From NCBI GenBank assembly GCA_903915655.1, contig CAIWTU010000157.1:1-64000 (forward strand): 64,000 nt of DNA, given 5' to 3'. Below are positions 35,564 through 38,806 of this stretch, piece by piece; position 1 is the first letter of the stretch; each line of letters starts with the position of its first letter. Source of the stretch: an uncultured Geobacter sp. GTDB lineage: Bacteria; Desulfobacterota; Desulfuromonadia; Geobacterales; Geobacteraceae. The translations under genes were made by a program, and so were the position numbers. Under the pieces are notes generated by a model that ran no database searches, had not been told where the DNA came from, and saw only the letters and a program-made list of their open reading frames with translations.

Positions 35564-35601
35564 TAATATGGTAAATAACTTCAAGAATGAAGGAGTCGGC
35601 T

Positions 35602-36165
35602 ATGAAAACCCTGGAGGCAATCAAAACATGGAGGAGTACCCGCAGATTTCTTGATAAACCTGTCGAGAAAGAGAAGCTTGAGGCTATCCTTGAGGCTGTA
35701 CTGAGGGCGCCCTCCTGGGCCAATACGCAATGCTGGAGGCTGATACTTGTTGAAGATCTGGTCATGAAGCAGAAACTCAGCGAACTCTCCTACGTCGAGT
35801 CTTTTTTCGCACGAATACAGTACAAGTCAAATCCTGCACAGAAGGGGATTGTCCAGGCGCCGATGGTTATTCTCCTTTGTGCCGACCCGGCCAGCTCGGG
35901 TAAAATATGGGAGAAGGAATATTATATGACAGATGCTGGCATTGCTTCCCAGAACCTTATGCTTGCGGCCCATTCTCTTGGCCTTGGCACGGTATTCGTT
36001 GGGGTTTTTGACGAAGAGAAGATCCGCTCCCTGCTGCAGATCCCCGAGGGGATCCGGATTGTGGGCCTATTTCCGGTCGGTTATCCGGCTGATGTAGGTG
36101 AAGTTAGGCCAAGGAAATCGTTGGGTGAAATTGTCTTCTCGGAAAAATGGGGAGCAAGCTTCTGA
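35602..36165 (+). CDS. Nitroreductase-family flavoprotein
   Basis: FMN-dependent NAD(P)H oxidoreductase fold, 187 residues. RSTRRFLDKPVEKEKLEAILEAVLRAPSWANTQ is the classic FMN-binding N-terminus; GIASQNLMLAAHSLGLGT and the C-terminal PVGYPA complete the family pattern. Substrate unknown. ATG 35602 is preferred over 35587 because AAGGAG is 6 nt upstream and the family starts at MKTLEAI. Last gene before a terminator. Confidence 0.9.
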   Translation: MKTLEAIKTWRSTRRFLDKPVEKEKLEAILEAVLRAPSWANTQCWRLILVEDLVMKQKLSELSYVESFFARIQYKSNPAQKGIVQAPMVILLCADPASSGKIWEKEYYMTDAGIASQNLMLAAHSLGLGTVFVGVFDEEKIRSLLQIPEGIRIVGLFPVGYPADVGEVRPRKSLGEIVFSEKWGASF

Positions 36166-36222: not shown

Positions 36223-36431
36223 AATTGCGTTTCTTTCCCGGATATTCTGCGTGCGACGGGTAGTTGTTTACTCGACGTGCGAGCTGGAAGATATCTTTGA
36301 AAGTCCAGCTTGACAGCTGAGATTCCCTGCCGGGTAGGAGGTACTCCTGATGAGTGTCGATTTTTCTTACAACACTAATAACAACCCAGCTAAAGGCAGT
36401 AAAATACCTCTTAATATCAACTACATACAGA

Positions 36432-36448
36432 TTGGCATAACTATTGCT
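36432..36448 (+). promoter_or_regulatory. Sigma-54-type promoter for the PEP-CTERM gene
   Basis: TTGGCATAACTATTGCT contains GG at 36434 and GC at 36446 separated by exactly 10 bp, with TTGC at the -12 position, close to the consensus TGGCAC-N5-TTGCW. It lies 67 bp before the ATG. The rest of the interval 36223-36514 shows nothing I can assign. Confidence 0.6.
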
Positions 36449-36514
36449 GCTCTGTAATCAACTACCTTTCCCGAATTGATAACTCAAACCTGACGACAGA
36501 CAAGGAGTAAAATC

Positions 36515-37219
36515 ATGGAAAAAATAATCGTTCTTCTAACTCTTTTGGTGTTGATGTCCGGGCTAACTAACGGGGCTACCGCCTACACTATCAACTATTC
36601 AAACACGGGGACTGGTGGTCAGTATACAACTCCCTACCTTGCTGGTCCTGGCGTTGCCAATCTGACGGTAGAAACTTTTGACCCTCAGACTCAGCCTCTA
36701 AATTGGACATGGGATGGTAACTACAGTGTTGTTACAGGGAGCCAAAGTGGTCTTTATGCTGCACCAGCGGGTGGTTTGAGCGTTTCTGACCCTTCCCGCT
36801 ATGTGACGACCCCAAAACAACTCGGCGCCTCACCCGGTAATTATGTGACGGTAACAAACTTAGGCGGAACATATAATTATTTTGGTCTCTGGTGGGGGTC
36901 TGTTGACGGGTACAATACCCTGACATTTTACAAAAATGGACAGCTGGTACAATCTTTTACAGGTAACGAGGCGATAAATCCGAGTCATGCGAATGGCGAT
37001 CAAACCGCATCCTCAACCAATCTGTATATTAATTTCCTCAACCTGCCCGAGTTCGATAGCTTCAGGCTGGCAAGTACGAATTATGCTTTCGAGGCTGACA
37101 ATATTGCAGTCGGTAATGTTGCTCCTGTCCCTGAACCAGGCACAGTATTACTGTTAGGTCTCGGACTGTTCGGACTTGCCATCTATGGCAAGCGTCGCAT
37201 GAACAGGGAAGCCTTATGA
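36515..37219 (+). CDS. PEP-CTERM-sorted exported protein
   Basis: 234 residues. Signal peptide of about 23 residues (IIVLLTLLVLMSGLTNG.ATA). The C-terminus has the full sorting signal: VPEPGT, a hydrophobic segment LLLGLGLFGLAIYG and a basic KRRMNR tail, which exosortase recognises and cleaves; mature proteins go to the surface or exopolysaccharide matrix. The middle is rich in Gly, Asn, Thr and aromatic residues (beta-rich, FGLWWGSVDGYNTL), cysteine-free, with no named domain. ATG follows AAGGAG. A monocistronic gene with its own sigma-54-type promoter and terminator. Confidence 0.9.
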   Translation: MEKIIVLLTLLVLMSGLTNGATAYTINYSNTGTGGQYTTPYLAGPGVANLTVETFDPQTQPLNWTWDGNYSVVTGSQSGLYAAPAGGLSVSDPSRYVTTPKQLGASPGNYVTVTNLGGTYNYFGLWWGSVDGYNTLTFYKNGQLVQSFTGNEAINPSHANGDQTASSTNLYINFLNLPEFDSFRLASTNYAFEADNIAVGNVAPVPEPGTVLLLGLGLFGLAIYGKRRMNREAL

Positions 37220-37242
37220 TAAATACCAGTCAGAGCTTACTG

Positions 37243-37275
37243 AAAAAGGGCGTTGTGATACAACGCCCTTTTTTT
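37243..37275 (+). terminator. Rho-independent terminator after the PEP-CTERM gene
   Basis: AAAAAGGGCGTTGT and ACAACGCCCTTTTT pair with a 3-nt loop at 37257-37259, continuing into a T-run ending at 37275. It can also work for the convergent minus-strand operon. Confidence 0.9.
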
Positions 37276-37379
37276 GTCAGCAAACTTTACAGGCTTGAGA
37301 AACCGGTTGAGAGCAGGGTGGCTGAGAAAGAGATACTGGAACAGGGAATTCCGGAACTCATATCAGTTTACGACCCTTT

Positions 37380-37612: not shown

Positions 37613-38806
37613 TTACTTGAGGTTTCTTACGGCCGTATCGATCCGATCAAGGCCTTCAGTTATATTCCTCATGCTGGTGGAATAGGATAGTCTGACGAAT
37701 TTGTCAGCCCCGAAGGCTATGCCCGGGACCAGAGCCACCCTGGCCTGTTCCAGGAGATAAGCAGCAAAATCAGTGGAGTTACAGATTACCTTCCCCTCAA
37801 AACTCTTACCGTAGATTTGCGAAAAATTCGGAAAGGCATAGAAGGCGCCGGTTGATTTGAAACATGAGACGCCAGGTATGGCGTTAAGACGGTCTATGAT
37901 ATAGGTGCGGCGTTTTTCGAATTCGACCACCATGCTGGCTACGGCGTGCTGTGGACCGTTCAGCGCCTCGACTGCTGCCTTTTGTGCAATGGAACAGGGA
38001 TTGGAGGTGGACTGGGACTGCATCTTGGTCATGGCGGATATCAGATCGGCTGGGCCGGCGGCGTAACCAATTCGCCATCCAGTCATTGAATATGTCTTGG
38101 AGACGCCGTTCACCACAATTACGCGTGGTTGCAGAGCCGGCAGGGCAGTGGCAATGTTGTAGAATGTCTGATTGTCGTACAGTAGTCTTTCATAGATATC
38201 GTCTGTTATTATTGCAAAATCGTGCCTCAGGCAGACTTCTCCCAGGCTCTTCAATTCGTCCAGGCTGTATGTGGAACCGGTCGGATTGCATGGTGAGTTT
38301 AGGATGAGCGCCCTGGTATTTTTTGTAATTACCTTTTCCAGCTGCTCAGGGGTAATTTTGAAGGCGGCCCCCTCGTCGGTTTCTATAAAAACCGGTTTGC
38401 CCCCGGCCAGGATGACCTGGTCGGGATAGGAAACCCAGTAAGGCGCCGGGATGATAACTTCATCGCCTTCCTGGACCAAGGCCTGTGAAATATTGTAGAG
38501 GGAGTGCTTTGCGCCACAGGCAACGGAGATCTCGTTTCTCGCATAATCGAGGGCGTTATCTCTTTTCAGTTTGGCGATAATGGCATCCTTGAGTTCATCT
38601 GTACCCCCCACTGGCGTATATTTGGTGAAGCCGGTCTCTATCGCCTTCCTGGCTGCTTCCTTGATATTATCCGGCGTGTCGAAATCCGGTTCTCCGGCGC
38701 CAAAGCCTATGACATCCAGACCCTGTGACTTGAGGGCCTTCGCCTTTGCGTCTATAGCCAGGGTAGGTGAAGGCTTGATTTTGTTCACGCGATCTGCCAG
38801 GTGCAT
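37613..38806 (-). CDS. Pyridoxal-phosphate aspartate aminotransferase (class I)
   Basis: 397 residues, subgroup I-gamma of the aminotransferases. PLP lysine in VNGVSKTYSMTGWRIGY, substrate-binding GAGEPDFDTPDNI and YTPVGGT near the N-terminus, and NSPCNPTG are present. Usually transaminates aspartate with 2-oxoglutarate; some homologues also act on prephenate. ATG follows AAGGAG. Part of the minus-strand run aldolase-rsmD-coaD-aminotransferase-DUF1858. Confidence 0.93.
   Translation of the reverse strand: MHLADRVNKIKPSPTLAIDAKAKALKSQGLDVIGFGAGEPDFDTPDNIKEAARKAIETGFTKYTPVGGTDELKDAIIAKLKRDNALDYARNEISVACGAKHSLYNISQALVQEGDEVIIPAPYWVSYPDQVILAGGKPVFIETDEGAAFKITPEQLEKVITKNTRALILNSPCNPTGSTYSLDELKSLGEVCLRHDFAIITDDIYERLLYDNQTFYNIATALPALQPRVIVVNGVSKTYSMTGWRIGYAAGPADLISAMTKMQSQSTSNPCSIAQKAAVEALNGPQHAVASMVVEFEKRRTYIIDRLNAIPGVSCFKSTGAFYAFPNFSQIYGKSFEGKVICNSTDFAAYLLEQARVALVPGIAFGADKFVRLSYSTSMRNITEGLDRIDTAVRNLK

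Follow-up and report, generated by a model that had tools for sequence, protein, structure and literature searches.

A PEP-CTERM protein gene behind a predicted PrsR/sigma-54 promoter in an uncultured Geobacter, with a candidate second PrsR-type box behind the gene

The closest described counterparts of the gene considered here are the PEP-CTERM/EpsH system, the pepA gene of Aquincola tertiaricarbonis and a PrsR-type regulon in Desulfovibrio vulgaris, a member of another class of bacteria. For the PEP-CTERM/EpsH system, Haft et al. 2006 (PMC1569441) described a 17-nt upstream motif (motif 1) with the 3' end TTTACA, a spacer of 62.8 +/- 10.6 nt, and a motif 2 that precedes the start by 71 nt on average. 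The Aquincola pepA gene has a mapped transcription start and requires rpoN1; plasmid-borne prsK or prsK-prsR failed to restore a prsK mutant of that organism (PMC9850573). In D. vulgaris the PrsR homologue is DVUA0057, which in vitro bound the five PEP-CTERM targets predicted for it (PMC3333781), and one common motif has been given for DVUA0057 and a second regulator, DVU0110 (PMC4641369). A search of the Geobacter RpoN regulon paper (PMC2725144) for six terms returned no passage, and PMC12316311 makes no mention of PEP-CTERM or exosortase.

The present gene lies in a stretch of 64,000 nt from an uncultured Geobacter sp., analysed as a whole and referred to here as the window; its features are collected in Table 1. 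It shares with the system of Haft et al. a C-terminal sorting signal, a predicted single-gene arrangement behind a gap of more than 200 nt (here 349 nt, to a nitroreductase-type gene at 35587-36165), a 17-nt box ending in TTACA, a -24/-12 element that precedes the start by 66 nt, tandem PrsK and PrsR genes, and an exosortase with EpsI among polysaccharide genes. The box precedes the -24/-12 element by 61 nt, inside the range of 32-92 nt of that study, and its likeness to motif 1 was judged by length, 3' end and spacing. The window differs in that its box ends in CTTACA instead of TTTACA, in that PrsT lies on another contig, and in having an extra box behind the gene. Aquincola pepA is likewise a PEP-CTERM gene with a -24/-12 element, an enhancer-like upstream sequence and a terminator after it; however, the window protein scores 25.1 bits with the PepA model, short of its cut-off of 80, and so is not of that family, and prsT follows pepA but not the window gene (PMC9850573). 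In the DVUA0057 regulon, as is predicted here, a PrsR-type regulator binds PEP-CTERM promoters that have sigma-54 sites (PMC3333781, PMC4641369).

Table 1. Features of the PEP-CTERM unit; positions are those of the window.
Feature	Position	Strand	Remarks
Upstream PrsR-type box (motif 1), 17 nt, TGTCGATTTTTCTTACA	36355..36371	+	61 nt before sigma-54 site; 19.5 bits
Sigma-54 (-24/-12) promoter element TGGCATAACTATTGCT	36433..36448	+	0 mismatches to TGGCAY-N5-TTGCW; 66 nt before ATG
Probable ribosome-binding site AAGGAG	36502..36507	+	read from sequence
PEP-CTERM protein gene, Npun_F0296 (NF050191) family, 234 aa	36515..37219	+	ATG at 36515
PEP-CTERM sorting signal	37124..37198	+	PF07589, 34.9 bits in genome search
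Intrinsic-terminator-like hairpin with T run	37235..37281	+	inverted repeat, 22-nt arms; fold z-score -5.2
Second PrsR-type box TGTCAGCAAACTTTACA	37275..37291	+	21.0 bits; at terminator end, downstream of gene

The 234-aa product has a signal peptide (recognised by eye), a body predicted to form a beta-sandwich and a VPEP-TM-Arg/Lys tail that reads VPEPG, a hydrophobic stretch and KRRMNREAL. A preliminary description of this DNA had called the gene a PEP-CTERM gene, and models run on the protein itself agree: both PF07589 (30.8 bits, cut-off 20.7) and TIGR02595 (23.5 bits, cut-off 16) exceed their cut-offs. The same description found no named domain; this is wrong, as a named family, NF050191 (Npun_F0296 family exosortase-dependent surface protein), is matched over residues 49-198 (94.2 bits, cut-off 29). 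That family is present in 16 of the 277 genomes of the class, and its model entry gives no function for it; in Nostoc the namesake gene is up during hormogonium development (PMC12188702). The named relatives of the protein come mostly from Desulfuromonadales/Geobacter-type bacteria. An AlphaFold2 model (alignment of 18 sequences; mean pLDDT 71.7) has a body resembling carbohydrate-binding-module and MAM-like beta-sandwiches, with many near-equal matches; CBM8 comes top (Z 10.6, rmsd 3.0, 134 residues, 10% identity) among many similar rows, and Foldseek gave TM values of 0.3-0.4. On this model it is plausible that the product is a sugar-binding surface protein. The strong hairpin with its T run is predicted to close the unit. 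The next real gene on the 3' side is a convergent aminotransferase gene (37613-38806), and the PEP-CTERM gene is predicted to be a single-gene transcription unit of an XrtA-type PEP-CTERM system.

The consensus for sigma-54 promoters is TGGCAY-N5-TTGCW. In the window, GG at 36434-36435 and GC at 36446-36447 are separated by 10 bases, with 67 bases from the GC to the ATG, and the whole 16-mer fits the consensus without a mismatch; the GG-N10-GC element with good flanks 67 bp before the ATG, as first described, is thus borne out. Transcription is predicted to start near 36459. Across the 3.36-Mb genome the consensus has 11 matches against 3 for the reversed pattern, and a control pattern with its spacing off by one base has 1 against 2 reversed. 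Neither strand of the 64-kb window holds a second sigma-54 site with at most one mismatch. We collected 44 loci with relatives of the protein or its tail (a gene on contig C38 of the same genome, plus 30 and 13 others), which after removal of three duplicates gave 41 distinct genes, among them the window gene and the second PEP-CTERM gene of its genome. Of these 41 genes, 27 have a sigma-54 site with no more than one mismatch in the 300 nt upstream, in 26 cases at 30-100 nt before the ATG; the reversed and antisense controls gave 0 and shuffles a mean of 0.11. Contig C51 of the same genome carries two sigma-54 sites with related flanks (L026 and L027, near 61914 and 141637); a long CAGT tetranucleotide array comes after the second.

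The box motif, TGTCGAAAATCTTTACA, was learned de novo from the stretches before the sigma-54 sites of 25 other PEP-CTERM genes with the window left out, and is the best of four runs of the motif finder, the other three giving weaker or shifted motifs. When the upstream stretch was shuffled 2000 times, the score of the window box was never reached; the distance of this box from the sigma-54 site agrees with the 59-64 nt found in most of the other genes. The pattern TGTCG-N7-TTACA has eight exact matches in the genome (reversed control, four); two of the eight are followed by a sigma-54 site, and these belong to exactly the two detected PEP-CTERM genes. Elsewhere in the genome matches to the box matrix are rare (1 in 124 kb of other loci). 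Box and sigma-54 site occur together in 31 of the 41 genes, 25 of which trained the box, compared with 0 in 4100 shuffles and 0 antisense, and the pair recurs among NF050191 homologues in several other families. It is absent from the remaining 10, so not all PEP-CTERM genes use it. The shared upstream enhancer sites for which a search had been proposed were found, before both PEP-CTERM genes of this genome and before those of relatives.

The preliminary description had proposed PrsK/PrsR control with sigma-54, and had set down in advance that a genome lacking an exosortase or PrsR would speak against it. In the genome (3.36 Mb, 171 contigs) all the partners score above their cut-offs: PrsR at 648.7 bits (cut-off 502.6), PrsK at 556.7 (300), a single PF09721 exosortase at 232.7 (25.7) and one RpoN at 206.2 (22.8); with the shared upstream boxes, they support the proposal. 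The exosortase lies at the line of the XrtA model (209 bits, cut-off 208) and is followed by EpsI (87.9 bits, cut-off 42.8), in a locus that also holds glycosyltransferase-type and polysaccharide/polymer genes, the polysaccharide genes being recognised by eye from translations. PrsT is above its cut-off too, with a model that also passes in 1 of 14 control genomes. Two genes in the genome reach the Pfam PEP-CTERM model, the window gene and the one on contig C38 beside prsR-prsK. Among 58 relatives PrsR exceeds its cut-off in 29 of 31 genomes with a match to the protein or its tail and in 9 of 27 without (p 1.3e-6), a survey that is not a full PEP-CTERM census because its query was the window protein. 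The two exceptions among the 31 are 78% and 81% complete; the sole other searched genome of the genus has neither a protein match nor a PrsR match at the E-value used.

What was observed directly is the set of sequence elements with their spacing and recurrence, together with all the partner genes in the genome; as a whole these observations are best explained, with a probability of roughly 90%, by a PEP-CTERM unit that is controlled by PrsR and sigma-54 and processed by the exosortase. Binding, phosphorylation, transcription, cleavage and location would follow the published system. In such a scheme PrsK, on some signal, would phosphorylate PrsR, which would bind the box at 36355-36371, reach by looping the sigma-54 RNA polymerase that sits 61 nt farther on at the -24/-12 element, and open the promoter by ATP hydrolysis. 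The signal peptide would export the product and the C-terminal helix hold it until the exosortase cleaved it and passed it toward the cell surface or exopolysaccharide, where the beta-sandwich may bind sugar. Control by exopolysaccharide-linked signals, as first proposed, may be read from the place of the exosortase among glycosyltransferase and polymer genes. The experiments on Aquincola pepA (PMC9850573) and on DVUA0057 (PMC3333781) speak for this scheme; against it stand the Aquincola prsK mutant that was not restored, the 10 of 41 genes that lack the box-site pair, and an exosortase only just over the XrtA cut-off. As judged from sequence, the gene is a well-supported addition to the published system.

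Two other accounts of the promoter have to be weighed. That the -24/-12 match arose by chance, the gene being read from another promoter, for example of the sigma-70 type, is highly improbable: a weak sigma-70-type match does lie at 36378-36405 (9 of 12 positions; shuffle mean 1.7), but 27 of 41 genes share a -24/-12 element in the same position, against controls close to zero, and the window element has an upstream box at the published spacing. We rejected this account on the genome pattern counts, the recurrence of the element, the box shuffles and the controls for the box-site pair. It is unlikely, though less remotely so, that the sigma-54 promoter is driven by an NtrC-family activator other than PrsR. 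The link between box and PrsR draws on co-occurrence and on other species and is to that extent putative; the PrsR model scores more than 160 bits on 16 stretches of the genome but exceeds its cut-off on just one, and the binder need not be PrsR alone because DVUA0057 and the second D. vulgaris regulator DVU0110 were assigned the same motif (PMC4641369). Against another activator stand the strong co-occurrence of PrsR with PEP-CTERM matches and the second PEP-CTERM gene of this genome, which has the same box and adjoins prsR-prsK.

The box behind the gene is the only part of the PrsR/sigma-54 unit that is out of the ordinary, and it is a candidate site. It is one of only two matches of at least 15 bits to the box matrix in the 64-kb window. 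The hairpin that it overlaps was not listed by a consensus terminator scan because stem and tail fall outside the scan rules. The 130 nt after the box contain no GG-N10-GC site with up to three mismatches, and no gene judged real follows on the same strand. The C38 gene has a 3' box of its own, 2 nt after its stop (C38:26346-26362, minus strand, locus L075), so that both PEP-CTERM genes of this genome have 3' boxes near terminators and without sigma-54 sites. Among relatives we surveyed 98 PEP-CTERM genes, located by simple rules for PEP tails and starts that miss some genes; 97 had full downstream flanks, and for 88 of these no further PEP-CTERM gene was detected in the 1200 nt downstream. 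Within 300 nt behind the gene, a box occurs in 17 of the 57 cases with the upstream pair and in none of the 31 without it (p 0.0004), and in held-out genes outside the first 41 the counts are 11 of 33 and 0 of 26 (p 0.0013), p values that are optimistic because related genes are not independent. The reversed matrix gave 0 and column-permuted matrices a mean of 0.12. Downstream boxes occur in 16 of 37 genomes; per 10 kb there are 21 of them over the first 100 nt, about 1 between 300 and 800 nt, and 2.8 from 800 to 1200 nt. A further 40 stretches, nearly all around PrsR genes, yielded three new full-flank genes, two of them isolated and both of those without the upstream pair. The boxes do not always turn their TGTCG end toward the terminator hairpin; this idea was rejected on the sequences of L052, L172, L045, L117, L134 and L148, which do not fit it.

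What the downstream box might do is a separate question. We put it at even odds that the box at 37275-37291 has no role for the gene, being either a remnant of a neighbouring PEP-CTERM unit since lost or a match by chance. PEP-CTERM genes often stand in tandem, and one of the 17 boxes, that of L121 (among the 11 held-out cases), is explained as belonging upstream of another PEP-like gene; on the other side, the 31 genes that lack the upstream pair have no 3' box, no sigma-54 site with one mismatch or fewer comes after any of the 17, and downstream boxes score like upstream ones. It is possible, if rather doubtful, that PrsR needs two boxes for an active ring, the second lying beside the first or, often, behind the gene near the terminator, in which case the boxes at 36355-36371 and 37275-37291 would be the candidate pair bracketing this gene. 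Of the genes with a single upstream box, 15 of 36 had a downstream box, compared with 2 of 21 (p 0.015 with the threshold at 10 or 12, 0.11 with it at 15). The link held within families (one-sided p 0.034); within genomes there was none (permutation p 0.66), which favours the leftover or chance account. Overall the two-box test is weakly positive, and its p values, too, are optimistic because the genes are related.

The excerpts seen of PMC1569441, PMC9850573 and PMC3333781 make no mention of boxes behind PEP-CTERM genes, and a literature search found no paper titled on the subject. The D. vulgaris study differs from ours in the stretches in which motifs were sought, which ran from -650 to +50 around the starts in the case of its one-component regulators and were upstream regions in other cases, so boxes behind genes fell outside its motif search; it notes that activator sites may sit far up- or downstream, beyond its limits (PMC4641369). 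If 3' boxes are functional, searches confined to upstream regions miss part of PEP-CTERM gene control.

The sequence evidence confirms a textbook-like PrsR/sigma-54 unit in a lineage with a two-gene candidate regulon, and because the whole candidate regulon is two genes, PrsR binding could be tested cleanly there. Between prsR and the second PEP-CTERM gene lies a CAAX-type protease gene (PF02517; L075:11478-12260, minus strand); in L148 a PEP-CTERM gene has behind it a frame whose C-terminus is similar (WHFW). Just past the window, at 68219-70374 of its contig (C157), is a histidine kinase/NtrC-type regulator pair that scores below the PrsK and PrsR cut-offs. In the PrsR neighbourhoods of relatives (L184-L223), 36 box matches of at least 15 bits lie in 694 kb outside the flanks of detected PEP-CTERM genes, compared with 3 matches for the reversed matrix over all of these loci, so PrsR may control other genes there.
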